DNA of 64,000 bases from Entomomonas asaccharolytica. Its GTDB lineage: Bacteria; Pseudomonadota; Gammaproteobacteria; Pseudomonadales; Pseudomonadaceae. Within the stretch, counting starts at the first letter, position 1; each line of letters opens with the position of its first letter. The notes beneath the pieces were generated by a model. The model did no database searches, was not told the origin of the DNA, and saw only the letters and a program-made list of their open reading frames with translations. A program made the position numbers and the translations under genes. The stretch covers positions 2,495,673-2,559,672 of the forward strand of contig NZ_CP067393.1 in assembly GCF_016653615.1 (NCBI RefSeq), in the 5' to 3' direction. Shown piece by piece: positions 1 through 64,000 of the stretch.

Positions 1-146
1 ACTATCTTTTGTGCTTCATTCATATAGAAAGGTACTATTTCACCATCTTTATCAATGATCTTGAGATTATTAGCAAAATAATAAGCATCATCTGTCATCA
101 TGCGCTTAAAATAGCTATCAGCCATCTTAGATGCACAATTAGACAT
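1..146 (-). CDS. terL: Terminase large subunit, N-terminal fragment (prophage 1)
   Basis: Start of a phage packaging ATPase/nuclease running off the left edge. The DNA is nearly identical to the start of the complete copy at 57340-58890. I chose the ATG at 144-146, which overlaps the terS stop and has GAGG eight bases upstream; an upstream in-frame GTG (158) is also open. Only about 48 codons are visible, so function rests on the second copy. Confidence 0.85.
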   Translation of the reverse strand, partial: MSNCASKMADSYFKRMMTDDAYYFANNLKIIDKDGEIVPFYMNEAQKI

Positions 147-744
147 CTTTTGCCTCACTTGCTAACCGTGCTAATCGTTCTTCATAGGACTCGCCTTCTA
201 CTTCATCTGTTATATTGTAAGCTTGACGTTCTAAAGGGATTAGATTTTTAAGAGTAGTAGATAAATCTCTTAAGGTGCTGGCATGAGTAGGCAAAGCAAC
301 AGCTTTTAACATAGCACTGCGTCTAGCTATGGTTTGATCCTCTTCTGTTTCAGATAAGATAGCTGCTTCTATTTCATTTCGATTAGTAGCTGCTTCTTGG
401 AGTTGCCCCATAAAAAGATTAACTAGCTCTCTACCTGTGCGAATATCATTGCGGTGGTGTTTAATTACTTGGATATTGGTTAATGCTGCTGCTTCGATAT
501 CCTCGCGCGTGGGGGTGGTGCTTTTTGGTGCTTTTTTTGGTGCTTTTTCTTCTTGTAATGTAAGTAAACCAACTTGTGTAAGATTATTGATTTCTTTGGA
601 ATGATCACGAAGCCAACCATACTTATTAGCACGTCTAACTATCACGCTATGATTAGGCATTTTATACTTTTCTGCTATAGCTCTTACAGATAATTGTCCT
701 AATCTGTAGTCTTTTTCTATTGCTTGCCAGTTATATTTAGCCAT
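139..744 (-). CDS. terS: Terminase small subunit (prophage 1)
   Basis: 201-residue DNA-recognition subunit of the packaging terminase, which would bind the packaging site and hand DNA to TerL. The N-terminal ~60 residues look like a helix-turn-helix (RLGQLSVRAIAEKYKMPNHS followed by a basic stretch), then comes a Lys/Pro/Ala linker and a helical region. It differs from the copy at 58883-59488 by one residue (Asn/Ser) that I can see. It overlaps terL by eight bases, so translation is probably coupled. A conserved promoter-like box sits ~53 bp upstream. Assignment rests on this family look and on position directly before terL. Confidence 0.85.
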   Translation of the reverse strand: MAKYNWQAIEKDYRLGQLSVRAIAEKYKMPNHSVIVRRANKYGWLRDHSKEINNLTQVGLLTLQEEKAPKKAPKSTTPTREDIEAAALTNIQVIKHHRNDIRTGRELVNLFMGQLQEAATNRNEIEAAILSETEEDQTIARRSAMLKAVALPTHASTLRDLSTTLKNLIPLERQAYNITDEVEGESYEERLARLASEAKDV

Positions 745-796
745 AACGTATAATCACCTTTATCTCTCCAAGTTATTTCATCTAAAACAGTATCCA

Positions 797-824
797 AATT
801 ATGTCCCTTTATAAGCTTGTCAAG
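797..824 (-). promoter_or_regulatory. 28-bp conserved phage promoter-like box, copy 1
   Basis: On the minus strand it reads TTGACA, then eleven less conserved A/T-rich bases, then GGACATAA. It lies upstream of terS. The same box with identical internal spacing occurs five more times, each upstream of a minus-strand phage gene block. TTGACA is a perfect sigma70 -35, but the conserved GGACATAA does not give a canonical -10 at 17 bp. Confidence 0.7.
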
Positions 825-852
825 TCGTTTTATACTTTTCAGGCAATAAAAA

Positions 853-873
853 CCCACTTAAGAAAGTGGGCTT
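853..873 (-). terminator. Rho-independent terminator (minus)
   Basis: Seven-base-pair stem (853-859 with 864-870), four-base loop, followed on the minus strand by a run of five T. It lies downstream of the gene at 922-1452 and would end that accessory transcript before terS. Confidence 0.75.
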
Positions 874-921
874 ATTAGCGATTTTTTGAGTGATTTAATT
901 TTTTTATTACATAACTTCTTT

Positions 922-1452
922 TTAAATATTTCTTAATCTACGATTACCCATAATTTTACCTTTGATTAACTCTTTATATTTTTCATCCATTAATTTATCA
1001 CATTCTTGTTTGCTCATAGCTTCCCACTGGTTTCTATCAATGATAAAACTGGTAATCTCATCTACATTAACAAACTCTAACCAGTAGTCCACTTGTATTT
1101 GTTGTGTTTTATTTTCTTCTGCTAGTTTTAATCCCTGCCAATAAGTAAAATTTTCAGAGAGAATTACCATTGCAATATCTTCATTGTATCTGGTTGAGAA
1201 TATAAACACTTCAGCAAATAAATGCTTAATATCATCATAGGTTACAGAATTGAGATCAATTACTTCATCGTCCTCATAAGGACTATTTAAATTATTCCAT
1301 ACATGTTCAAAAGCATGAACAGCCGCATAATATTCTGGTGTTCTGTAAGGCTGGCCTACTACATAAGCTATATTGATTAGGTCAATAATATCGCCCATCG
1401 TTTTAGCTCTTAAATAATAAATATCGTAAGGTGGTAAATAGTTGCTTTGCAT
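922..1452 (-). CDS. Hypothetical accessory protein with shared 5' leader
   Basis: 176-residue acidic, soluble protein of a family I do not recognise; no membrane segment or signal peptide. The ATG is preceded by CAGGG at eight bases. Its 5' region carries the same leader box as the three genes to its right (1466-1487), but no palindromic promoter is visible, so it is probably read through from 1522-2061. It sits between terS and the giant gene, where the second prophage carries unrelated cargo. An anti-defence role is inference from position only. Confidence 0.6.
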   Translation of the reverse strand: MQSNYLPPYDIYYLRAKTMGDIIDLINIAYVVGQPYRTPEYYAAVHAFEHVWNNLNSPYEDDEVIDLNSVTYDDIKHLFAEVFIFSTRYNEDIAMVILSENFTYWQGLKLAEENKTQQIQVDYWLEFVNVDEITSFIIDRNQWEAMSKQECDKLMDEKYKELIKGKIMGNRRLRNI

Positions 1453-1465
1453 TTTTATTACCCTG

Positions 1466-1487
1466 CCCCTGATCAGTCGAGGCGCAC
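1466..1487 (-). promoter_or_regulatory. Conserved leader box, copy 1
   Basis: 22-bp element that on the minus strand starts GTGCGCCTCG and ends CAGGGG, just upstream of the ribosome binding site of 922-1452. It matches the copies at 2075-2096, 3031-3052 and 3823-3846. No -35/-10 pair is recognisable at the usual distance. Confidence 0.65.
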
Positions 1488-1521
1488 TAAGTTGTTTAAC
1501 TAAAGGATGAATTGCTAAAAC

Positions 1522-2061
1522 CTATTTAAGTAATTTTTCTTCTAAATCTTTTTGAATAAGGATTTTTGCTCTATTATCTATAATGCGAAAACCATCAACA
1601 GGTTTATTAAGTGATAAAATACTATGCCTAATATCTGTACTAGTTATTAAACTTTTTAAGTTATCAGAAAATTGAATAACACACTCCTCCAATATAGATA
1701 GTATTAGATCAATATTTATATCTTTAATATTGGCAGTATAGTTATTAATGATTTTAGAATAAGTATCACTGATTAGAAAATGGTTTACAGTTTCTTCAAT
1801 ACTTTTATTAAATGATTCTGTAAGTTTTTCTTCACTGTATTTTAATTGACCATGTTCAAAATATAGAGCATCGGTATCCCTAAAGTTTTTAGCATTAGTT
1901 ATACAGAATTTAGGAAGTACAACAGAATAAAAAACTCTTTCTATTTCTTTATTTGTTAAGTTCTTAGCGTCCTCTGCTTTTAGTTTACCCCATAGTCTAC
2001 CTAACAAAGTCATTTTATTAGCTAATACTTTTTGTAAATCTATTGTAATTATATCTCTCAT
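1522..2061 (-). CDS. Hypothetical accessory protein
   Basis: 179-residue, mostly helical-looking protein of unknown family. I start at the ATG 2059-2061 because it has AGGA seven bases upstream and follows the leader box; the open frame extends to 2175, but that extension would run through the promoter. It has its own promoter with a palindromic operator (2108-2136) and belongs to a set of four neighbouring genes with the same upstream architecture. Confidence 0.6.
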   Translation of the reverse strand: MRDIITIDLQKVLANKMTLLGRLWGKLKAEDAKNLTNKEIERVFYSVVLPKFCITNAKNFRDTDALYFEHGQLKYSEEKLTESFNKSIEETVNHFLISDTYSKIINNYTANIKDINIDLILSILEECVIQFSDNLKSLITSTDIRHSILSLNKPVDGFRIIDNRAKILIQKDLEEKLLK

Positions 2062-2074
2062 TTTAAGTTCCTTA

Positions 2075-2096
2075 CCCCTGATCAGTCGAGGCGCAC
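2075..2096 (-). promoter_or_regulatory. Conserved leader box, copy 2
   Basis: 22-bp leader element beginning about five bases after the expected transcription start of the 2108-2136 promoter and ending before the AGGA of the gene at 1522-2061. Identical to copy 1 over all 22 bases. Confidence 0.65.
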
Positions 2097-2107
2097 CATT
2101 TGATTTT

Positions 2108-2136
2108 ATAATACGTCTTTTAGACGTACTAGTCAA
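2108..2136 (-). promoter_or_regulatory. Sigma70 promoter with palindromic operator in the spacer
   Basis: On the minus strand, TTGACT (2131-2136) and TATTAT (2108-2113) are separated by exactly 17 bp. A 17-bp palindrome, TACGTCT-N3-AGACGTA (2112-2128), fills the spacer and touches the -10. A bound dimer would block RNA polymerase. The same layout occurs at 3065-3092 and 3859-3887. Confidence 0.75.
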
Positions 2137-2164
2137 ACATTTTTTTAAATTATTTAAAATAAAA

Positions 2165-2184
2165 AAACTCACCAAAGTGAGTTT
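2165..2184 (-). terminator. Rho-independent terminator (minus)
   Basis: Eight-base-pair perfect stem (2165-2172 with 2177-2184), four-base loop and an A/T tail that is T-rich on the minus strand. It overlaps the stop codon of the gene at 2183-3016, which makes that gene a separate transcription unit. Confidence 0.7.
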
Positions 2185-3016
2185 AATGAATTATGACGTT
2201 ATCTTGATCACTAGAAGCTACAGATACTTTTTTATTCTTGTAGAATGATGTACTGTTAATTAATCTAAATATTTGTGCGCCTATAGAACGTAAACCATTT
2301 TCAGGAATATTATGTAAATCCCCCTTTCTGTAGAGTTCTAAATTAATCTCATATTCAGGGTATAACTTTTTAATTTCATTGATTGCTAATAGCTTTAGTT
2401 CATCACTAGAGTTTCTAGTTAAGGATACTCCATCAACACCACCGTATATTTCATTAAATGGTGATGGTTCATAATCCCTATAATCACCTGTTAATTCATC
2501 TGTATAATAAGCATTAAACTTGCCTATTACATTGTATACCTCTTCCTCAGTCGCACCATCAGTCCATTCAACATAGGTTCTATTACGGTCTTTTGATACT
2601 TTAAACTTAATGTCTTTAAAATGTTTTTTTAAATCGCTACGAATATTTTTATTAACTGCACCAGTACCATGACTATCGGTTAAAACTTCTAAATGAGTAT
2701 ATTCATCACTGGTAAGTATTCTTTGTTTTTCTAATATTCTAGTTTTTTTAGCTTCAGCTTCTTCTTTAGCATTAAATAGCTCAGACATTGTAGCGAGTAA
2801 CTTTAACTCGTGATCTGTGGCTATTGCTTCATAAATCTTAAAAGAATAACCATTATTTAATTGATTATGATTAATTTGTGTACTTGATCCATCTTCATAG
2901 ATAATATGGTAGTGGTTTAAATTATTTTCTTCTGTAATCTGTGTAATATATCCATATTTAAAACCATACAATGAAGAATCCCATACTTTAGTACCTACAA
3001 CAATTGATTTTTCCAT
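2183..3016 (-). CDS. LPD29-like domain accessory protein
   Basis: 277 residues. The first ~60 look like a small beta-rich domain (KVWDSSLYGFKYGYI). After a charged helix (~75-100), residues ~118-200 resemble the large polyvalent-protein-associated domain LPD29: IRSDLKKHF, then FKVSKDRNRTYVEWTDG, then a Tyr/Asp-rich stretch. LPD29 is known from phage and plasmid proteins found near anti-restriction genes; its biochemical role is not established. The start has AGG ten bases upstream and follows leader copy 3. I infer an early anti-defence or DNA-handling role. Confidence 0.6.
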   Translation of the reverse strand: MEKSIVVGTKVWDSSLYGFKYGYITQITEENNLNHYHIIYEDGSSTQINHNQLNNGYSFKIYEAIATDHELKLLATMSELFNAKEEAEAKKTRILEKQRILTSDEYTHLEVLTDSHGTGAVNKNIRSDLKKHFKDIKFKVSKDRNRTYVEWTDGATEEEVYNVIGKFNAYYTDELTGDYRDYEPSPFNEIYGGVDGVSLTRNSSDELKLLAINEIKKLYPEYEINLELYRKGDLHNIPENGLRSIGAQIFRLINSTSFYKNKKVSVASSDQDNVIIH

Positions 3017-3030
3017 TTTACTATAACCTG

Positions 3031-3052
3031 CCCCTGACTAGCCGAGGCGCAC
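3031..3052 (-). promoter_or_regulatory. Conserved leader box, copy 3
   Basis: 22-bp leader element with three substitutions relative to copies 1 and 2. It begins about six bases after the expected transcription start of the 3065-3092 promoter and precedes the gene at 2183-3016. Confidence 0.6.
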
Positions 3053-3064
3053 TATTTATGCTAA

Positions 3065-3092
3065 ATAATACGTCATTTAGACGTATTGTCAA
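3065..3092 (-). promoter_or_regulatory. Sigma70 promoter with palindromic operator in the spacer
   Basis: Minus-strand TTGACA (3087-3092) and TATTAT (3065-3070) with a 16-bp spacer containing the 17-bp near-palindrome TACGTC-N5-GACGTA at 3069-3085, which extends into the -10. It drives the LPD29-like gene. Confidence 0.75.
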
Positions 3093-3098
3093 GTATTT

Positions 3099-3809
3099 CT
3101 ATTCAGCATTGTTTTTACGTGCTTCCGATTCACTGGTGATAGTGTTATATTCTGCTTTTAGCCTAAACAGTTCTAACATGGCAATATTCATTTCATTAGT
3201 ACCACCTTCCCAACGTTGCCATTGTCTTAATAAGGCATAAACTAATTTACTTGCTTGTGTCTGTGTTAATCCTTTAGTTTCTCTTAATGCTTTTATTTCA
3301 CTAGGTAAAGGAAATTTACTTTCGTCTATACGGTGTTGTGTTTCACTAATTATTGATTCTATAGTAACTTTTAACTGTAAAAGCTCCCAAGTTGCCAAGC
3401 TCATCTTACCTGTACCAGTTTCCCACTTCATCCATGTATTGAGAGAAATATATACTAAATCACTTGCTTGCTGTGAAGTAAGTCCTACTGACTCCCGAAA
3501 AGCTATAATCTCTTCAGGTGTTGGTGAGTATTTTTTATCTCTATTTCTATTCTGGTGATTCGCCATTTCATACTCGATTGATTTTTGATCTATAAATTCT
3601 TTGAGTTTCTGAATGACCTGCTGTTTAACTATTTCACGGCTCATTAATTTAACTTGTTCAGTAGAATCAATAATATCCTGAGTAAATAATTTAAAATACT
3701 TAACTAAAAAAGTAGTTATATCTTCACAGATACATAAACTTCTATTAGCTAAATCCTCTACTAACAAGTTAAGTAAATCATGCTTATTTGAAATGTTTAA
3801 TGCTGTCAT
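3099..3809 (-). CDS. Tandem double-HTH regulator, candidate controller of the block
   Basis: 236 residues from the preferred ATG at 3809, which has AGGA seven bases upstream (the ATG at 3815 is too close). The N-terminal ~100 residues are helical. Two homologous XRE-like helix-turn-helix units follow: SPTPEEIIAFRESVGLTSQQ with WMKWETG, and PLPSEIKALRETKGLTQTQ with WQRWEGG. Each ends in a similar helix (WELLQLK, LELFRLK). Two HTH units in one chain would suit the 17-bp palindromes at its own promoter and at two neighbours, so I infer autoregulation plus control of the block, much like anti-CRISPR-associated (Aca) regulators in other phages. Specific binding is not shown. Confidence 0.75.
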   Translation of the reverse strand: MTALNISNKHDLLNLLVEDLANRSLCICEDITTFLVKYFKLFTQDIIDSTEQVKLMSREIVKQQVIQKLKEFIDQKSIEYEMANHQNRNRDKKYSPTPEEIIAFRESVGLTSQQASDLVYISLNTWMKWETGTGKMSLATWELLQLKVTIESIISETQHRIDESKFPLPSEIKALRETKGLTQTQASKLVYALLRQWQRWEGGTNEMNIAMLELFRLKAEYNTITSESEARKNNAE

Positions 3810-3822
3810 TCTCATATCCTTA

Positions 3823-3846
3823 CCCCTGAAAATAGTCGAGGCGCAC
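3823..3846 (-). promoter_or_regulatory. Conserved leader box, copy 4
   Basis: 24-bp variant of the leader box: GTGCGCCTCGACT and TCAGGGG are kept, while the middle is changed and two bases longer. It lies about six bases after the expected start of the double-HTH transcript. Confidence 0.6.
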
Positions 3847-3858
3847 CACCAACTCTAG

Positions 3859-3887
3859 ATATTACGTCATTCTGACGTACTGGTCAA
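3859..3887 (-). promoter_or_regulatory. Sigma70 promoter with palindromic operator (regulator gene)
   Basis: Minus-strand TTGACC (3882-3887) and TAATAT (3859-3864), 17-bp spacer, with TACGTCA-N3-TGACGTA at 3863-3879. It drives the double-HTH gene, which suggests autoregulation. Confidence 0.75.
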
Positions 3888-3892
3888 TAAAT

Positions 3893-4916: not shown

Positions 4917-7900
4917 TTACAAATACCCTCTTGCCCTTGCTATCCTATCTACAGATTCAGCCAACTTATTACGTCTTTTTTGTAGTACCTCGATACGTTC
5001 ATTTTTCATACTGGCACTAATTTGTTTATTAGCTCTAATCACATTTATTTGCTGCGAATATTTATCTATTCTAGTTTTGGCATTATTATACAATCGCCTT
5101 GATTTCAAACTATTATCTTGAGCTAACTCCTTGGCATACTCTAGCTCGCCATTTTTGCGAGCATTTGATAGAGAAGCATAGACTTGATCTATTTTCTGTT
5201 GTGACTCATAGAACCTCGTCAAATACTTACTACCTGTACCAACATTTGAATTTTTAATAAAATCTCCTACCATAAACAGATTATTAACTTTGCTTAAATC
5301 TCGATTAGGATTACTAGGTAAATCTACTAAAGGTCTAGCAGCTAGATCAGTAATATTTAACACCTGTAAACCAAGCCAACCAAAATAACCACGTACAAGG
5401 TACTCTATACGCTGTGGTGAAATATTTAATACTTTTCCTGCTGCTATAGCTCCTGCACTGGTGGCTGCTGTATAGCGGTCTTTAGCTGCAAGTCGTTGTT
5501 GCCCCATATTATCAATAGGTGAGCCAAGGAAAGAGTTATAATTATTAGTTGCTTCTAAAGCTGGTTTTATTAACTGTGGCATAGGATTCATAGCTAGTTG
5601 ATCAGCCAGTAAAGTAGTCAATGATCCTACAAAATCTTTGGTCGTGTAATCATTACTAGCTAAAGCGAACTCTAAACCACGTTCAACTACTGTGCCTAAT
5701 GCGCCAATTTCAAATGGTTTAGGAATATATAACGCTTTATCTGCTAGTTTCACATACCAATAGTTATCCCGTACCCAGTCTGGCAGTTGTTTATAATCAT
5801 CGTCATCTTTTGTAGTAAATACAGTAAAGATGAAGCTAAAGCGACAGCCCCTGTTACCATAGCAAAACGTTTAGGATCATGTTTAGCTGCACGACCAAGT
5901 TTATACATGCCTTGTAGCCTTGCATTAAAAAAGGTACTACCTGACTGAGAAAACGAATAGAAGCCCATTTGCCATGAGCTGTAAAGTTCATTAAATCACG
6001 TGCTTCAAAGCTTGCTTGTAAATGACTTTTTCCTGCTGCTATGGCTTGCTGATAGATAGCTGCCCGATTAACAGTTTCTGCTCTGTCTCCGACCTCCTTA
6101 TACCAATTCCATGCTTCAAATAGAGCATGTTCTACTTTGGAGCGAGTATTTAATATCTGTCCTTCTTTGATACTAAGTTCTTTCATTAGTTTACGTAGTT
6201 GATAACCTTGGTTGCCATCATTCATAGAGCCAAAGCGAATAGCACCACCACCAGCCATTAGATGATTTAAGGTATTAGTGCCTATTTTAGAAGCATTAAA
6301 ACCATCTATTACATTACTGATAGGATTATATTTTAGGTTAGCTACTGCGGTAGCCTGTAATGTATCTCTGATTAAATTTCTTAATCTAAAGGTAGGTGAG
6401 ATTGTAACACCAACGGTTAAAGCTTTTTAAAGCTACCCATGATATTAATCAGAGGATTATTCCAACCTTTGTGATTAATCATATTCAGCGCATCAAATAC
6501 CAACGGATCGTTGACTTGGTAATATTCTTGTTGCCCACCTTCCATCACCCAAACAATATTTTGGCCTCCTTTACGGTAGCCATTGGTGGATTGGTTGATA
6601 TACTCACCTGCTCCTATAGATTTATCTAACTTATCAGCAATACCTAGATTAACCGCAGATTTAAGAGAGGTAACACCAGCTTGATTTTTCATGGAGGCAG
6701 TAAGTAGATGTGACCAATTACTGACGATATTGACTAATAAGTCATCCAGTGCCTTAGTACCCCCTTTAAGTTTTTTAAATGCTTTCTGCCCCACTAGTTT
6801 ATTAACATTACCTATACTGAAATTAGTATCTTCATCAGCAATACGATAAAAAGGTAAGTAAAAACCACTTTCCCACGTTTTACGGTTTTCACCATCTATT
6901 AGTCCTGATTGTTCAGCAATATCCAATACTGCTTTGTTATAGGCCATGAATTGTTTTCTAACTTGATTATATACCTTTGCCCTGCTTCGACCATCAGTCA
7001 TAGTACCATCACTTAATTTTTTAAGCTCTTGTATATCATTATCTGTAAATAGGTTTTCTCGATCCTGTTGTTTTAATCGTTCTGCTCGATTAGCTGCCAT
7101 CCAGCTTAACCATTCGTTAAGTTCATTGGTTTCGCCTGAATTTAGTTCTGATAAAATACCAAATAATCCTCGCCCATCCGAATCTATATCTAATGCACCT
7201 TGGCTAAGCTTAGGTTTACCAAAGCGCAATAAAGCTTCTACTGCTCCCTCTGTGCCTTTTGACAGATGAGCTTGCATATAAGCAGTTTCACTCAATTCTT
7301 TTAGTGGTGCAAAGGAATCAAATACACCTTGCACAAACTTTTTGCCTAGGTTTTCAGTTATGCCTTCAATTTTATTTTTAATGCTTTCATGCTGGAACAT
7401 AGCAAACTTATTTTTCATAATGCTACGTTGAGCTGGTGAAAGACGATCCGCTAAAGGCTGTGATCTATCAATTTTATTATCTAACCAACTAAGGCCACTA
7501 TCAATAAATTGGCTGAGACGTGAATATTGTTGATTATTATCGCCAATAGATACTTTCTTACCATTCTCTATAAAACGCCTCGCATTACCTAATAAGGAAG
7601 CTATATCATTAGTAGACCAATTAACAGGTAGTCCAAGTTTTCTTGAGAAATTTCTAAAAGCAGCCACTAATTTATTCCAAAAAGACATATTTTGAATATC
7701 ATCTGTGGCTGCCATATCAGCAAGCACTTCTTCAGTCGCTAATAATTTACTATAGCCATACTGTTTTGACAGTTGATCTGCTTGTTGTTTAACTGCTGGA
7801 TTAGTATTGTAGATATTATTTAAGATTGGATTTAAGGCATTACCAAATAATCCTCTTAATCCATAATGGCCTAATATCTCATGTTCAACCACAAAGGATG

Positions 7901-29345: not shown

Positions 29346-29820
29346 TTAAATCAGAATCCTAAACAATTATTCTAATAATAATTGCTCTTAACATGGGATA
29401 ATTTTATCTGATGGATACTTAATTAGCAGAACCTATAGAATTATAAACTCTTATTTGAATTACAACCCTAGAAACTGGATCATTCACAGCAACACTCTTA
29501 AAGAAATAATTAAATAAGAAAAGAACCGTATTATATCTCCCAAAGTTTTAAGTAATAACATAATTAATTAGCAACTAAGATTATCAATAATTTTTTGCTT
29601 TACTATTTTAAGTATCTACAAACAAAACAATCTAATACTAAAGTCTAATAAAGCAAATAAAACAATAACTTTACAAAGACTTGTTTTTTATATGGACATA
29701 ATGTTTAATTAACGCGCTCTAGCTAAATCGTTAGGGTATGGGTTTGAACGCTCATTTAAGAGAACTACCGCCATAGATACAATTAATGCTTATCTAGTGT
29801 TTTGTTGTGTCCGCTTTTAT
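29346..29820. other. 475-bp A/T-rich non-coding stretch
   Basis: No convincing gene on either strand. A GGACATAAT string near 29694 resembles part of the phage promoter box but lacks its TTGACA at the right spacing. The right end becomes GC-rich and leads into the structured element before vgrG. Confidence 0.5.
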
Positions 29821-29895
29821 GGCGGGTTATGGGCGGGACACTTTCGAGTGTGCCGTTTGTTCTCTTGCGGTCGTTCAACCCGTCCATAACTCGCC
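29821..29895 (+). ncRNA. GC-rich structured RNA-like element upstream of vgrG
   Basis: 17-base arms (29821-29837 and 29879-29895) pair along their whole length as plus-strand RNA, with two G-U pairs and no mismatch. Inside is a perfect ACACT-TTCG-AGTGT hairpin (UUCG tetraloop, 29838-29851) and a weaker CCG/CGG hairpin, giving a three-way junction. It stands out by base composition from the surrounding DNA and ends 59 bp before vgrG. Candidate 5' leader regulator or small RNA; class unknown. Confidence 0.5.
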
Positions 29896-29954
29896 CCCAT
29901 ATTTATATGCTGTTGTAGGGCTTTAATTTAATAATAAATAAGGATGTACCTATT

Positions 29955-32180
29955 ATGTTTCACACAGCTAACGAAACACATTTCTATTTTGATGTACAAG
30001 GTATTTCTAATAATAATCTTCAAGTTTTAGCTTTTGATGGTATAGAAGGTTTAAATAGTGAATATATTTTTGAAGTGACGCTTGTCTCAAATCATTTACG
30101 TTATGATATAACTAAATTACTGAGTCAATCTGCTTATTTATCCTTTACCCCTGATAAGTCTCAAGGTGTGCATGGTAATATCTTATTTGTTAAGCGTGGT
30201 GCAGTAGGTAAAGACTATTCATTATTTAAAGTAATTTTAGCTCCTAAATTTAGTCATTTGCATAAACGCTTTAATCAAAGAGCCTTTATAGATAAATCTG
30301 TTATTGAAATTATTACAACAATACTTAATGAACATGGGCAGCAGCAGACGATAGACTTTAATTTTAAATTGAGAGAAGAATACCCCAAAAGAGAATTTTG
30401 CTGCCAATACGAAGAGACAGATGCTAGTTTTCTATATCGTCTTTGTGAAGAAGAAGGTTTAAGCATTCATTACCAACATAACCAAGATAATCATTTAATG
30501 GTAATTAGTGATGATAATAACTTTTTTTCTAGTAATAATAATGCTTTTCACTATGCCAGTGATACAGGTTTTATAGCAGATTATCCTGTCTTTAAACGGT
30601 TAGATGTTAATTTAACGACTGCTACTACAACGGCTAGTTATAGAAATTATAATTTTGAGACAGCTAAAATCCCTGAAGGTAATGCCCAAGGTAAGCAACA
30701 TAAAAAAGCAAATGAGGCACAAGAGCCTTCATTAGAATTTTATGATTACCCACAGCACCATCTTAATAAAGCCAGAGGTGACTATTATTCAAAAATAGAA
30801 ATAGAGCGTTTACGCACTTTTCATATCCTAGCAGAAGCTTATACGGATATACCTGAACTAAAAAGCGGCTACTGCTTTACAGTAGCGGATTTTCCTGCGC
30901 TAGATACACTCGATAGCAGTGATAAATGGTTAGCTATCCAAGTGTACCATCAAGGTAGGCAACCACAAGTTTTAGAAGCGGTAGGCAGTGAAGTTAGTGC
31001 AATTATGCAACAACCTAACTATTTATTTAAATACTACAAACACCCAATTAACAAAGCTCTACAATTTCCCTTTGATGAATTTGCCCAAGGGTATCGTAAT
31101 TGCTTAGTAGCTATACCCCAAGCTGTACCACACCGTCCACAAAGACTACATCCAAAGCCTAAACTGTTGGGCGCACAGACAGCTATTGTGACAGGTGCAG
31201 CAGGAGAAGAAATCTACTGTGATGAATATGGTCGTATAAAAATTCAATTCCATTGGGATCGTGAAGGAAATTATAACGAAAACTCATCACACTGGGTAAG
31301 AGTAGCCAGTAACTGGGCAGGTGATGGTTATGGTACAGTGGTAGTGCCTCGAGTAGGTATGGAAGTAACGGTTGATTTTTTAGAAGGTGATATTGATAAT
31401 CCCATTGTAACAGGGGCTTTACATAATGGTGTCAACAAAGTCCCTTATGATCTCCCTGCCAATAAAACCAGAAGTGTTTTTAAAACATCCAGTTCCAAAG
31501 GTGGCGTAGGTAGCAATGAACTTAGAATAGAAGATAAAGCAGGTCAAGAACAAATCTTTGTACAATCCCAAAAAGATTTTGACCAACTTACAAAAAATAA
31601 TCACACAGTACAAGTTTTAAATAATAGTCACCTTCAGGTGCAAAATGAACACTCAGAAACCATAGCAAAGAATCGTTACCAACACCAACTTTCTGAAGAA
31701 CATCACCTTACCGCATTTGATCGTAAAACCCAAATCATGATGAATGATTATAAAACAGTGGGTATGGCAGAACATGAAACCATAGGCACAATTAAAACCA
31801 CTGAAGCGGGGATGGAAATTCATTTAAAAGCAGGTTTACAAAGCGTAATTGATGGTGGCTTATCGCTTACACTTAAAGCTGGTGGTCAACATATTGTGCT
31901 AAACCCTGCTGGTATATGGATGACCATGCCAGTATGGACAGGTGGTGTACCAATGGAAGGAACACCAGCAACACCTCTACCACCTATGAGCAAAGCAAAT
32001 ACGGTCGCCGCTACAACAGCACCGCCTGTTAGCTTGCAACCAAGGCCACCTGCTGTAGTACCTAACTTCCAAACTGCTAGCTTGCAAGGTGCAATGATTA
32101 TTCCTGTTTGTGGCAAACAAGCTAATGCCCCATGTACTAGAGGGGAGGCTTGCCCATGCAAGAAAGCATTAACCGCTTAA
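29955..32180 (+). CDS. vgrG: T6SS spike protein VgrG
   Basis: 741 residues. The N-terminal gp27-like part (~1-390) includes CQYEETDASFLYRLCEEEGL. The gp5-like OB fold (~415-500) has EIYCDEYGRIKIQFHWDREG and SHWVRVASNWAGDGYG. The DUF2345-like C-terminal repeats end in LNPAGIWM (~650). A Pro/Ala-rich tail finishes with a Cys-rich CGKQANAPCTRGEACPCKK motif, which probably contacts the adaptor or effector. It caps the T6SS tube and carries the effector encoded downstream. It overlaps the adaptor gene by 25 bases. No T6SS core genes are in the window, so it is an orphan spike module. Confidence 0.95.
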   Translation: MFHTANETHFYFDVQGISNNNLQVLAFDGIEGLNSEYIFEVTLVSNHLRYDITKLLSQSAYLSFTPDKSQGVHGNILFVKRGAVGKDYSLFKVILAPKFSHLHKRFNQRAFIDKSVIEIITTILNEHGQQQTIDFNFKLREEYPKREFCCQYEETDASFLYRLCEEEGLSIHYQHNQDNHLMVISDDNNFFSSNNNAFHYASDTGFIADYPVFKRLDVNLTTATTTASYRNYNFETAKIPEGNAQGKQHKKANEAQEPSLEFYDYPQHHLNKARGDYYSKIEIERLRTFHILAEAYTDIPELKSGYCFTVADFPALDTLDSSDKWLAIQVYHQGRQPQVLEAVGSEVSAIMQQPNYLFKYYKHPINKALQFPFDEFAQGYRNCLVAIPQAVPHRPQRLHPKPKLLGAQTAIVTGAAGEEIYCDEYGRIKIQFHWDREGNYNENSSHWVRVASNWAGDGYGTVVVPRVGMEVTVDFLEGDIDNPIVTGALHNGVNKVPYDLPANKTRSVFKTSSSKGGVGSNELRIEDKAGQEQIFVQSQKDFDQLTKNNHTVQVLNNSHLQVQNEHSETIAKNRYQHQLSEEHHLTAFDRKTQIMMNDYKTVGMAEHETIGTIKTTEAGMEIHLKAGLQSVIDGGLSLTLKAGGQHIVLNPAGIWMTMPVWTGGVPMEGTPATPLPPMSKANTVAATTAPPVSLQPRPPAVVPNFQTASLQGAMIIPVCGKQANAPCTRGEACPCKKALTA

Positions 32181-57339: not shown

Positions 57340-58890
57340 TTATGCAGCCATATAGTCTAAATCTGAGTTGTTAAGGTTTTTCTGCCAATCTGGTGTGTAA
57401 CTGTCATCTGCTTGGATAGGTGTAGCAAAGGTTAAAGCTAGAGCATCACCATCATCAGGGGATTTACCTGTTTCTTTTTTGATTTTTTCTTTTGAATCTA
57501 ATTTGATTTGCCCATTGTGGGTAAAGGAGTAACTAGGTGCGGTTAAATCCATGTGTAAACGGTCAATGTCTGGAATGCTTGGCGTAATAGGGTCTACTAT
57601 CCAATCAGCCATTTCTCCCCACATTTCAGCACGTTTATTGTAGTATTTACGTGGATCGCTAGGTTTTGCATTGAATATCACAGGTGTTACACGATCACCA
57701 AAGCCCCACAATACTAATAAATCGTAAACACCAGCACCTAAACCGCCTGTAATATCAATAAACATCATACGAATGGTAGGATCATTGCGTAATAGATTGG
57801 CACAGATACTAGCTACTTCTGGCACAGATAAACCGTTATATGATCCTTCTTTCCAAGCTACACGTCCTTGCCTGTGGTAAATACTGGTATCATCATCACC
57901 ATAGCGAGCCACATCTACACCTACTACATGCGCTCCTATGCGTTGCACATTGGTTGCTAATTGCTTTCTTGCTCTGGTTACTGCAAACGTATTAACTAAT
58001 GGCTGATGGCCTACTTTTTGGAAGGCTAGATCACAGGTAGCAGGGTATTCTTGGTTAAATACGTCTTTACTACCGTTAAAATCTGAGAATATTTTGTTAG
58101 CTCGCCATGCCATTTGCTGAATATCAAGGCCATAGGTTTCCATATACTCAAGATCATATTCATTTAGCTCTAAATCTTTGCTTGGTTGTTTCCTATATTC
58201 TTCTTGGATATACCAAGGCACAAAGATAGGGATATAATCAGACTTACCTGCTACTGCTAATTTCCAACGCTCATGGAAAAAGTTCATACCATTGGCAGTA
58301 GATTCTAAAAATATTTCTGTACCTTCTTTATCAGGTATGGCTTGCCCTAGACCTGCCATAATGTCGATACCAAAAGGCCAGTAAGCTACTTCTGAGCCAT
58401 GAAAAAATTGTGCAGTAAATGAACGTCCAGTTGATTTATTACGCGCTGTAGCAACTCGATAACTACTATTTAGCTCCGAAAAGGATAAAGCTTTAGCATT
58501 TCTACTTTTAATCTTTGGCTTAAACTCATCATGGCTAAGATCATAGTAGTTTTTAGCCATCTGGAATAAGTTATCAGTAGCATCAAGATCATGGGTAAGA
58601 ATAAAGGTTTTCTTATGAAATTTACTAGAGGTACGTTTGTAAAATCTAGCACCTACATAGGTACTTACGCCTTGTTGTCTACCCTTCACACAGATAGCTC
58701 TTACTTTGCCTGTCTCTGATAATTGTCTCTCTACGGCATCATGTACTATCTTTTGTGCTTCATTCATATAGAAAGGTACTATTTCACCATCTTTATCAAT
58801 GATCTTAAGATTATTAGCAAAATAATAAGCATCATCTGTCATCATGCGCTTAAAATAGCTGTCAGCCGTTTTAGATGCACAATTAGACAT
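57340..58890 (-). CDS. terL: Terminase large subunit (prophage 2)
   Basis: 516 residues from the ATG at 58890 (GAGG eight bases upstream); a GTG at 58902 would add four. ATPase: Walker A-like CVKGRQQGVSTYVGARF, Walker B-like AQFFHGSEVAYW. RNase H-fold nuclease: VVGVDVARYGDDDTS, MMFIDITGGLGAGVYD and KSPDDGDALALTF supply the acidic residues. It pumps DNA into the head and cuts it. Overlaps terS. Confidence 0.93.
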   Translation of the reverse strand: MSNCASKTADSYFKRMMTDDAYYFANNLKIIDKDGEIVPFYMNEAQKIVHDAVERQLSETGKVRAICVKGRQQGVSTYVGARFYKRTSSKFHKKTFILTHDLDATDNLFQMAKNYYDLSHDEFKPKIKSRNAKALSFSELNSSYRVATARNKSTGRSFTAQFFHGSEVAYWPFGIDIMAGLGQAIPDKEGTEIFLESTANGMNFFHERWKLAVAGKSDYIPIFVPWYIQEEYRKQPSKDLELNEYDLEYMETYGLDIQQMAWRANKIFSDFNGSKDVFNQEYPATCDLAFQKVGHQPLVNTFAVTRARKQLATNVQRIGAHVVGVDVARYGDDDTSIYHRQGRVAWKEGSYNGLSVPEVASICANLLRNDPTIRMMFIDITGGLGAGVYDLLVLWGFGDRVTPVIFNAKPSDPRKYYNKRAEMWGEMADWIVDPITPSIPDIDRLHMDLTAPSYSFTHNGQIKLDSKEKIKKETGKSPDDGDALALTFATPIQADDSYTPDWQKNLNNSDLDYMAA

Positions 58891-59488
58891 CTTTGGCCTC
58901 ACTTGCTAAGCGTGCTAATCGTTCTTCATAGGACTCGCCTTCTACTTCATCTGTTATATTGTAAGCTTGACGTTCTAAAGGGATTAGATTTTTAAGAGTA
59001 GTAGATAAATCACGTAAGGTACTGGCATGAGTAGGCAAAGCAACAGCTTTTAACATAGCACTGCGCCTAGCTATGGTTTGATCCTCTTCTGTTTCAGATA
59101 AGATAGCTGCTTCTATTTCATTTCGATTAGTAGCTGCTTCTTGGAGTTGCCCCATAAATAGATTAACTAGCTCTCGTCCTGTGCGAATATCATTACGGTG
59201 GTGTTTAATCACTTGGATATTGGTTAATGCTGCTGCTTCGATATCCTCGCGCGTGGGGGTGGTGCTTTTTGGTGCTTTTTTTGGTGCTTTTTCTTCTTGT
59301 AATGTTAGTAAACCAACTTGTGTAAGACTATTGATTTCTTTGGAATGATCACGAAGCCAACCATACTTATTAGCACGTCTAACTATTACGCTATGATTAG
59401 GCATTTTGTACTTTTCTGCTATAGCTCTTACAGATAATTGCCCTAATCTGTAGTCTTTTTCTATTGCTTGCCAGTTATATTTAGCCAT
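58883..59488 (-). CDS. terS: Terminase small subunit (prophage 2)
   Basis: 201 residues, one difference from the copy at 139-744 that I can see. HTH-like N-terminus, Lys/Pro/Ala linker (KAPKKAPKSTTPTRED), helical C-terminus. Such near-identity next to unrelated accessory blocks points to recent exchange between the prophages. Preceded by promoter box copy 6. Confidence 0.85.
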   Translation of the reverse strand: MAKYNWQAIEKDYRLGQLSVRAIAEKYKMPNHSVIVRRANKYGWLRDHSKEINSLTQVGLLTLQEEKAPKKAPKSTTPTREDIEAAALTNIQVIKHHRNDIRTGRELVNLFMGQLQEAATNRNEIEAAILSETEEDQTIARRSAMLKAVALPTHASTLRDLSTTLKNLIPLERQAYNITDEVEGESYEERLARLASEAKDV

Positions 59489-59539
59489 AACCTATAATCA
59501 CCTTTATCTCTCCAAGTTATTCCACTGATAACAATATTC

Positions 59540-59567
59540 AAATTATGTCCCTTTATAATGTTGTCAA
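59540..59567 (-). promoter_or_regulatory. 28-bp conserved promoter-like box, copy 6
   Basis: Minus-strand TTGACA ... GGGACATAAT, 52 bp upstream of terS as in prophage 1. The two terS boxes differ in only a few inner bases. Confidence 0.7.
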
Positions 59568-59593
59568 GCCGTTTTTATAATTTTCAGGCAATA

Positions 59594-59617
59594 AAAAACC
59601 CACTAAAGTGGGGTTTT
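59594..59617 (-). terminator. Bidirectional rho-independent terminator
   Basis: CCCAC/GTGGG stem with a four-base loop, flanked by A-run and T-run on both sides, so it can work on either strand. It ends the transcript of 59637-60362 before terS. Confidence 0.8.
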
Positions 59618-59636
59618 TATTAGATTCAATTTAATG

Positions 59637-62412: not shown

Positions 62413-64000
62413 TTACAAATACCCTCTTGCCCTTGCCATTTTATCTACAGACTCAGCCAACTTATTACGTCTTTTTTGTAGTATCTCGACACGCTCATTT
62501 TTCATACTGGCAGTTAATTGTTTATTAGCTCTAATTGCATTTATTTGCTGTGAATACTTATCTATTCTAGTTTTAGCATTGTTATACAACTGACGTGATT
62601 TTAATCTATTATCCTGCGCTAACTCTTTGGCATACTCTAGCTCGCCATTTTTGCGAGCATTTGATAGAGAAGCATAGACTTGATCTATTTTCTGTTGTGA
62701 CTCATAGAACCTCGTCAAATACTTACTACCTGTACCAACATTTGAATTTTTAATAAAATCTCCTACCATAAACAGATTATTAACTTTGCTTAAATCTCGA
62801 TTAGGATTACTAGGTAAATCTACTAAAGGTCTAGCAGCTAGATCAGTAATATTTAACACCTGTAAACCAAGCCAACCAAAATAACCACGTACAAGGTACT
62901 CTATACGCTGTGGTGAAATATTTAATACTTTTCCTGCTGCTATAGCTCCTGCACTGGTGGCTGCTGTATAGCGGTCTTTAGCTGCAAGTCGTTGTTGCCC
63001 CATATTATCAATAGGTGAGCCAAGGAAAGAGTTATAATTATTAGTTGCTTCTAAAGCTGGTTTTATTAACTGTGGCATAGGATTCATAGCTAGTTGATCA
63101 GCCAGTAAAGTAGTCAATGATCCTACAAAATCTTTGGTCGTGTAATCATTACTAGCTAAAGCGAACTCTAAACCACGTTCAACTACTGTGCCTAATGCGC
63201 CAATTTCAAATGGTTTAGGAATATATAACGCTTTATCTGCTAGTTTCACATACCAATAGTTATCCCGTACCCAGTCTGGCAGTTGTTTATAATCATCGTC
63301 ATCTTTTTGTAGTAAATACAGTAAAGATGAAGCTAAAGCGACAGCCCCTGTTACCATAGCAAAACGTTTAGGATCATGTTTAGCTGCACGACCAAGTTTA
63401 TACATGCCTTGTAGCCTTGCATTAAAAAAAGGTACTACCTGACTGAGAAAACGAATAGAAGCCCATTTGCCATGAGCTGTAAAGTTCATTAAATCACGTG
63501 CTTCAAAGCTTGCTTGTAAATGACTTTTTCCTGCTGCTATGGCTTGCTGATAGATAGCTGCCCGATTAACAGTTTCTGCTCTGTCTCCGACCTCCTTATA
63601 CCAATTCCATGCTTCAAATAGAGCATGTTCTACTTTGGAGCGAGTATTTAATATCTGTCCTTCTTTGATACTAAGTTCTTTCATTAGTTTACGTAGTTGA
63701 TAACCTTGGTTGCCATCATTCATAGAGCCAAAGCGAATAGCACCACCACCAGCCATTAGATGATTTAAGGTATTAGTGCCTATTTTAGAAGCATTAAAAC
63801 CATCTATTACATTACTGATAGGATTATATTTTAGGTTAGCTACTGCGGTAGCCTGTAATGTATCTCTGATTAAATTTCTTAATCTAAAGGTAGGTGAGAT
63901 TGTAACACCAACGGTTAAAGCTTTTTTAAAGCTACCCATGATATTAATCAGAGGATTATTCCAACCTTTGTGATTAATCATATTCAGCGCATCAAATACC
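62413..64000 (-). CDS. Giant polyvalent protein, C-terminal part (prophage 2)
   Basis: Uninterrupted 3' part (522 residues visible, continuing beyond the window). LPD38-like features: LRNLIRDTLQATAVA, FNARLQGMYKLGRAAK and LPDWVRDNYWYVKLADKALY. It matches prophage 1 nearly base for base from about 62650 to the edge, but the last ~200 bases of the gene differ more. It has one extra base at each of the three sites where the prophage 1 copy is shifted, which identifies those as single-base losses. Confidence 0.85.
   Translation of the reverse strand, partial: VFDALNMINHKGWNNPLINIMGSFKKALTVGVTISPTFRLRNLIRDTLQATAVANLKYNPISNVIDGFNASKIGTNTLNHLMAGGGAIRFGSMNDGNQGYQLRKLMKELSIKEGQILNTRSKVEHALFEAWNWYKEVGDRAETVNRAAIYQQAIAAGKSHLQASFEARDLMNFTAHGKWASIRFLSQVVPFFNARLQGMYKLGRAAKHDPKRFAMVTGAVALASSLLYLLQKDDDDYKQLPDWVRDNYWYVKLADKALYIPKPFEIGALGTVVERGLEFALASNDYTTKDFVGSLTTLLADQLAMNPMPQLIKPALEATNNYNSFLGSPIDNMGQQRLAAKDRYTAATSAGAIAAGKVLNISPQRIEYLVRGYFGWLGLQVLNITDLAARPLVDLPSNPNRDLSKVNNLFMVGDFIKNSNVGTGSKYLTRFYESQQKIDQVYASLSNARKNGELEYAKELAQDNRLKSRQLYNNAKTRIDKYSQQINAIRANKQLTASMKNERVEILQKRRNKLAESVDKMARARGYL

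Follow-up and report, generated by a model that had tools for sequence, protein, structure and literature searches.

A likely autoregulated, Aca10-like accessory locus in an Entomomonas prophage and its recurrent phage leader

What is controlled by three copies of one operator and four copies of one leader that stand beside a regulator with two helix-turn-helix (HTH) units? The question is raised by a locus in a 64,000-nucleotide stretch of Entomomonas asaccharolytica DNA (NCBI RefSeq assembly GCF_016653615.1, contig NZ_CP067393.1, positions 2,495,673 to 2,559,672, with all of it referred to here as the window), whose host is probably an insect-gut bacterium. Four minus-strand genes, g1 to g4 with g1 first, make up the locus. 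A promoter, an operator and a leader precede each of g1, g2 and g3, while g4, which starts close behind g3, has a leader only, without its own operator or a listed promoter; g3 and g4 would be co-transcribed. We consider it fairly likely that a prophage cargo slot here holds an accessory locus of Aca10-like, autoregulated type, in which dimers repress through the second HTH unit of g1 (HTH2) and the leader gates translation.

3099..3809, minus strand: g1, tandem Aca10-type HTH regulator, 236 amino acids (aa); the open reading frame (ORF) is readable from 3815, giving 238 aa
2183..3016, minus strand: g2, 277 aa, LPD29 domain at residues 121-202
1522..2061, minus strand: g3, 179 aa, uncharacterized
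922..1452, minus strand: g4, 176 aa, uncharacterized

In this proposal, g1 dimers would bind 17-bp palindromes in the -35/-10 spacers, mainly through HTH2, and this binding would silence g1, g2 and g3-g4 once an initial burst of early expression is over. Repression is put forward because of the Aca10 homology, the operator match and the operator position. The leader in each mRNA would fold to a short stem that encloses the invariant loop GCGCCUCG, from which GCCUC would pair with GGGGC before the Shine-Dalgarno (SD) sequence to give an H-type pseudoknot that opens or blocks ribosome entry; we infer this effect on translation from the sequence. Based on association, the controlled genes most likely encode early counter-defence or host-takeover proteins.

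By sequence, g1 belongs to the Aca10 family. Its best PDB match was 7XI5 (Aca10), at an E-value of 3.7e-10 with the window protein, and a profile of ten phage relatives (alignment A2) reached 7XI5 at 4.1e-27. A sequence-only reading of this DNA had described the 3099-3809 protein as having two consecutive HTH units, and both were recovered, at 69.0 and 68.8 bits against the profile of phage relatives. The protein thus begins with an additional N-terminal part that matched no family, followed by two Aca10-type HTH domains in tandem. Its start was set at 3809 and not at 3815, where the longer ORF opens, because 3809 agrees better with the spacing of leader and SD sequence. With 236 aa and two HTHs, g1 appears as an Aca10-like tandem variant and not as a plain family member.

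3348..3566, minus strand: HTH1, includes the MANHQNR stretch
3132..3344, minus strand: HTH2, with Q185, R197 and Q200 kept and N207 as the R44 equivalent

The accessible part of PMC9410881 gives Q22, R34, Q37 and R44 as the DNA-contact residues of Aca10, with R44 the most critical. Equivalents of Q22, R34 and Q37 are kept in HTH2 (three of four contacts), the likely DNA reader, and because the operator is symmetric and these residues are kept, the data suggest g1 homodimers that read DNA through HTH2. Pfam and NCBIfam put g1 among MqsA/HTH_31 proteins, its HTH exceeding the cut-offs of MqsA in Pfam and TIGR03830 in NCBIfam, as would be expected if the locus were a toxin-antitoxin or addiction module with the HTH protein as an MqsA-like antitoxin. 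We give this reading a very slim chance: the match is confined to the HTH part, the g1 translation has no CxxCG zinc motif, no MqsR match was found in g2-g4, and Aca10 is far closer (3.7e-10 versus 0.23 for MqsA). Two further families fell under their cut-offs on g1, namely Aca2_YdiL (PF08965; 19.5 bits, cut-off 23.8) and the VC1465 family Xer activation factor of NCBIfam (63 bits, cut-off 70). Structure prediction of g1 from the single sequence gave a predicted local distance difference test score of 38.5, too low for use. Among 298 family genomes seven matched g1: its own, a second Entomomonas genome (G029, full length) and five with partial matches, one of which, in G158, adjoins three copies of a similar leader. 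The window locus or its HTH had no match in viral contigs and named phages, and the window HTH had 82 partial matches in plasmids. An Aca10-type gene of a Klebsiella plasmid (L047) has no leader; its operator, TACGCTCATTGAGCGTA at 3456-3472, is letter for letter the core of the published Aca10 site.

The operators and their promoters are as follows.

3863..3879, no strand: operator O1, exact TACGTC-N5-GACGTA palindrome in the spacer of the g1 promoter
3069..3085, no strand: operator O2, exact TACGTC-N5-GACGTA palindrome in the spacer of the g2 promoter
2112..2128, no strand: operator O3, exact TACGTC-N5-GACGTA palindrome in the spacer of the g3 promoter
3887-3859, minus strand: g1 promoter, sigma70-like, TTGACC-17-TAATAT
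3092-3065, minus strand: g2 promoter, sigma70-like, TTGACA-16-TATTAT
2136-2108, minus strand: g3 promoter, sigma70-like, TTGACT-17-TATTAT

With up to two mismatches, four palindromes were found in the window (shuffled mean 0.66), a number reached by 1 of 100 shuffles. Sigma70-like sites as a class were not enriched (12 found, shuffled mean 20.1), so the support for the operator-promoter units comes from the recurrence of the palindrome in the spacer, and the hexamers themselves give none. The sequence-only reading had placed three 17-bp palindromes in the -35/-10 spacers of minus-strand promoters, and positions and promoters are as it described; it had also proposed to search for the palindrome-plus-leader signature genome-wide and in related phages. 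The three palindromes of the locus proved to be all the exact ones in the genome (3,236,906 bases, or 3.24 Mb), and all three operators were kept in G029. Its statement that each gene has its own operator applies to g1, g2 and g3 and fails for g4, and the operator-per-gene layout is not special to this locus, as three such genes also occur in L120/G158 and two in L122. MerR-type activators bind between -35 and -10, and the sites here lie in that interval, as they would if the HTH protein activated from within the spacer; we find this hardly credible, since the spacers have the normal 16-17 bp and the bacterial Aca families examined in the accessible part of PMC9410906 repress their promoters. 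Aca10 is known to repress anti-CRISPR genes. The accessible part of PMC9410881 describes a dimer of Aca10 (7XI5) binding ATACGCTCATTGAGCGTAT across the promoter of the acrIC7-acrIC6-aca10 operon from Pseudomonas citronellolis, and the locus operators match ATACGCTCATTGAGCGTAT in length and outer letters (outline TACG-9-CGTA). The earlier comparison with Aca-regulated operons was therefore largely right for the regulator (7XI5 at 3.7e-10) and the operator outline.

More novel than these is the leader, a 5′ untranslated region (5′ UTR) element of wide occurrence with a covarying stem that was not found in Rfam or in the literature searched. It takes the form GCGCCTCG...CAGGGGC-NGGAG-n7-ATG before all four genes. 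Scores below are from covariance model R1, for which the four leaders are training sequences; R1 was also trained on many sequences of the HTH-first set described below, so R1 scores there are not independent.

3820..3849, minus strand: leader 1, 5′ UTR of g1, 26.2 bits
3028..3055, minus strand: leader 2, 5′ UTR of g2, 38.3 bits
2072..2099, minus strand: leader 3, 5′ UTR of g3, 31.5 bits
1463..1490, minus strand: leader 4, directly upstream of g4, 36.4 bits

In stem 1, three bases 5′ of GCGCCTCG pair with three bases 3′ of it. Pairs were counted in 161 instances, reduced to 130 once duplicates and those without an ORF start were removed; the coding-like L181, L183, L227 and L352 (minus) were kept unless they were without an ORF start. 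Standard pairs at the three positions were found in 75, 73 and 50 of 77 unique combinations, compared with shuffled means of 65.3, 38.4 and 27.2, and a fourth pair had no support (29 of 77 versus 26.9). In the 25 combinations that came from the HTH-first set only, where the flanks were unconstrained, pairs 1 and 2 each held in 24 (shuffled 18.1 and 16.3). Double-change cells in stem 1 numbered 61 in alignment A3, compared with 22.4 after shuffling and a maximum below 61 in all 500 shuffles (0/500 reached it), and sliding the stem-1 partner dropped them to 0-22; A3 holds 57 sequences, four from the window, with L181, L183, L227 and L352 (minus) omitted as coding-like. Compensatory changes thus support a putative stem 1 in which two pairs are strong and the third is weaker. 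The loop GCCUC is complementary to the GGGGC just before the SD sequence, and this stem 2 would complete an H-type pseudoknot. Variants compatible with the pseudoknot include an extra loop base (L290), a changed linker (L318) and GAGGC for GGGGC (L332); L307/L309, with GCACCTC and GGGGAT, offer no clean compensation.

No match to the 4227 Rfam families was found at the leaders of the window, L120, L215, L163, L170, L331, L184, L336 and L283, nor was the leader described in the literature searched. A sub-threshold match resembling the hepatitis delta virus (HDV) ribozyme (29.1 bits, cut-off 50) lies close 5′ of the leader in L215 (9648-9725, minus strand). Pattern searches were widened stepwise, the widest listing at least 120 viral loci; 93 distinct leader instances were examined in 84 loci, two of these the window's own, and 36 further loci (L242-L277) were examined for HTH content only. 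Of the 89 instances that have an ORF, 85 place the ATG 10-15 bases behind GGGGY, with a peak at 11-13, where the pattern permitted 7-17. The 89 genes behind the leader fall into 70 families, or 116 genes and 96 families when the HTH-first set is added (median 86 aa over 95 representatives). Near their starts, 21 of the 89 leader-borne proteins have NHP or HPN, and an N-terminal peptide M-x-NHPNR is common to several families behind the leader (L123, L184, L202, L215, L217, L237 and others) and to all ten Aca10-type proteins of A2, whose starts were chosen during alignment. In 398 family genomes, the leader with up to one mismatch occurred in 33 genomes versus 3 for the reversed pattern; the exact form was restricted to the host genome (G000), G029 and G158, and the same three were the only genomes with the promoter-leader-gene layout among 30 loci examined (L132-L161). 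It was not found in G012 and G041, the remaining genus members examined, and leader regions of G158, L163 and L170 gave no usable match to named phages. Three candidate patterns were set aside: a first leader pattern (GRCT form) with 32 loci in viral contigs, judged chance with coding DNA as context; the operator plus GCGCCTC, with 5 loci, all GC-rich and judged chance; and a narrow early pattern plus ATG in genome contigs, a scan that predated the wider consensus, with 38 loci, 36 of them inside ORFs of at least 60 aa and none convincing.

Does the leader belong to the regulator? Starting from the HTH, the best 80 of 195 viral loci (the HTH-first set) were taken with query A2, itself built from proteins in leader-reached loci. 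The exact leader was present in 50 of these 80 and the reversed pattern in none; the counts were 57 versus 1 with one mismatch and 66 versus 17 with two. Because the query derived from leader-linked proteins, the 18 loci that share sequence with leader-pattern loci were removed, and the recount gave 32 of 62 exact (reversed 0) and 39 of 62 with one mismatch (reversed 1). Counted by cluster, these became 25/45 and 30/45, and the full set of 80 gave 37/57 and 42/57. Sixty-eight leaders had at most one mismatch; 65 were on the HTH strand, 64 of those lying 5′ of the HTH gene and 58 no more than 1 kb away. The usual order in the phage relatives is leader-bearing gene first, HTH gene second. No leader at this stringency was found before an ORF in 23 of the 80 loci, several of which keep the operator. 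Starting from the leader, an Aca10-type HTH was found in 24 of the 84 loci (including the two window loci, and with L040 and L120 having supplied HTH seeds) versus 0 of 70 control loci; the A2 profile gave 25 versus 0, and 11 of the 36 previously unused leader loci had the HTH. The operator recurs as well. A 17-bp palindrome in which 7 or all 8 pairs match was present in 35 of 54 distinct upstream regions of HTH-first leader loci (shuffled mean 0.7), most commonly as TACGCGCAATGCGCGTA, which resembles the published Aca10 site; it was present in 3 of 12 pattern-first regions with an HTH, duplicates removed, and in 14 of 55 leader loci without one. The promoter spacers of G158 hold TACGCGGAAACCGCGTA, each ahead of one of its three leader copies.

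The leader may nonetheless be a general phage translation or mRNA-stability element, such as an enhancer or ribosome-recruiting hairpin, that is unconnected to the HTH and merely used by Aca10-type operons. To this we assign a chance just short of even. In 45 of 50 leader loci without an HTH there is none anywhere in the record, because of which the leader appears not to depend on the HTH gene; leader 4 has no operator, and the leader loop is constant though operators differ. Against this stand the strong association in both directions, the fact that many leader records are fragments, and the HTH query itself, which matched in leader records and in 0 of 38 control records. Many phage records have the leader but no detected Aca10 gene, which makes it probable that the leader serves translation control in phages more widely.

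One protein might instead control both levels by binding the DNA operator and the leader RNA, as is reportedly the case for Aca2. The association in both directions agrees with this, HTH1 has lost its DNA-contact residues and would be free for another role, and a structured 5′ UTR of similar layout but another sequence is found in the published Aca10 operon and in L337/L365; with leaders in records without a detected Aca10 gene and a loop that stays unchanged when the operator changes, we nevertheless regard such dual control as rather unlikely. The different 5′ UTR was seen in G165, which among 25 genomes searched encodes a protein identical to 7XI5 across the 57 residues compared and has the published Aca10 site in its promoter. 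Ahead of the SD sequence it reads CCG-CCCCGG-CGG-AA-CCGGG (L360 1-3171), a possible pseudoknot of another sequence, and L337/L365 share this frame with CTG-CCCCGG-CAG. Of the 5 loci found in a pattern scan, L361 is the published operon again; L362, L363 and L365 have the element ahead of other genes and L364 ahead of none, and Aca10-type genes are present in L361, L365 and, weakly (20 bits), L363. On these few examples, the element appears to be a second type of leader with a comparable layout. A broader version, in which early counter-defence genes across phages form one translational regulon defined by the leader, with Aca10-type control at the operator and the leader pseudoknot and, here, HTH2 reading DNA and the diverged HTH1 reading RNA, is one that we hold to be unlikely.

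Several observations weigh against the proposal of an Aca10-like locus with dimers repressing through HTH2 and a leader that gates translation. None of the four Aca10 contact residues is present in HTH1 (S114, N126, M129 and G136 in the numbering of the 238-aa ORF), and the R44 equivalent is missing from HTH1 and HTH2 alike. The published Aca10 operon in G165 is without this leader, as are 15 of the 57 HTH-first clusters at up to one mismatch, and 19 of the 54 upstream regions lack a good palindrome. Among 50 leader records in which the locus itself has no HTH, no more than five hold one elsewhere, many records being fragments. In the leader, the third pair of stem 1 is weak in the combinations found only through the HTH (10 of 25 versus 6.3 shuffled; 74 of 2000 shuffles), and stem 2 is near-invariant: of its five pairs three never vary, one varies on one side and one departs once, the search patterns having partly fixed these bases. 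What supports the putative pseudoknot is thus the complementarity, together with a single change from U-G to U-A (L332). Finally, the two Entomomonas cassettes are near-identical, so the cassette by itself gives no evolutionary depth.

What the neighbours do is approached through their company. The sequence-only reading had called one neighbour LPD29-like, and g2 does exceed the Pfam cut-off for LPD29 (41.8 versus 27 bits). No named anti-CRISPR family in the protein-family libraries scanned matched g2, g3 or g4, and g2 was found in its own genome only among 390 order genomes, a draw from which G029 was evidently absent. Omission of three of the 95 representatives (L181, L183 and g1) from A4 left 92 leader-borne proteins, single members of which match RadC, ArdC-N, DUF932, DUF2958, DUF6948, LPD29 (g2 itself) and an anti-restriction PHROG; others match tail-fibre, collagen-like, AAA or clamp-loader families, and the Pfam table comprises 17 families. 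By such association, it is plausible that g2-g4 are anti-defence proteins. A short RNA signature that can be searched for marks small uncharacterized phage genes, often beside an anti-CRISPR-type repressor, and the leader could serve as bait for counter-defence genes independent of protein homology. RNA-level control, reportedly a property of Aca2, becomes testable as a general Aca feature, with the tandem HTHs of g1 as a natural separation of functions.

The 35 host CRISPR spacers had no match in the window, its 20-kb flanks or the G029 copy, a result that neither supports nor counts against anti-CRISPR activity. The host CRISPR locus (L356 9343-13823; array at genome 973885-976200, with 35 repeats and 30-base spacers) has ORFs that we read as Cas9 (1086 aa), Cas1, which Pfam confirmed, and Cas2, and is type II-C-like by size and gene order.

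As read from its ORFs, the window is one prophage plus the structural part of a related second prophage. The locus is flanked by a terminase small-subunit gene (139-744) and a 2763-aa ORF, which we read as a polyvalent protein, and the second prophage has different cargo in the equivalent slot. Window positions 1-877 and 58745-59619 are 95.4% identical, and 4917-6501 and 62413-64000 are 98.2% identical; two related prophages thus lie close together, sharing these stretches, with different cargo between them. In G029 all four genes, three operators and four leaders are present in near-identical sequence, and the blocks flanking the locus are 88.6% and 95.3% identical; a near-identical cassette despite diverged flanks is a pattern as would be left by recent exchange. 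Two 3′ elements complete the locus.

2165..2184, minus strand: terminator-like hairpin 3′ of g2, from the terminator scan
853..870, minus strand: inverted repeat then a T run, 3′ of g4, seen by eye and absent from the scan listing

Elsewhere in the window, positions 29815-29901 match the C4 antisense RNA of Rfam (RF01695) at 62.7 bits, just upstream of an ORF at 29955 that we read as VgrG. This RNA is familiar from phages P1/P7; the genome has 15 matches, other genus members have 8, 9 and 2, and 14 control genomes have 0.

How, then, does the locus compare with known systems? In an acr-aca operon aca lies downstream of acr in one unit, whereas here g1 comes first with its own promoter. The locus resembles the Aca10 operon in HTH family, in operator length and outer letters, in overlap of operator and promoter, and in having small genes in the unit. 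It differs in that Aca10 is a single 65-aa HTH closing one operon, whereas g1 has two fused HTHs and an N-terminal region, and the locus starts with the regulator, has an operator at each of three places and carries the leader that is missing from the Aca10 operon. Aca2 of phage ZF40 reportedly regulates through both DNA and RNA and has a structured leader; like the regulator proposed here it is an HTH autorepressor with its operator in the promoter, yet the sequence similarity is weak (PF08965, 19.5 bits versus the 23.8 cut-off). The accessible part of PMC9410906 describes large Aca9-like proteins of 232-273 aa, several with an S24 peptidase domain, which like g1 have an Aca-type HTH within a longer protein; g1 differs from those with S24 in its second HTH and unmatched N-terminal region. 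As in the phage and plasmid polyvalent-protein systems covered by the accessible part of PMC5512222, LPD29 occurs in g2 and the 2763-aa ORF adjoins, but g2 is free-standing, has 277 aa and is under an Aca-type operator. Judged by sequence, the regulator and its operators mark a new form of Aca10-like locus that is probably autoregulated.

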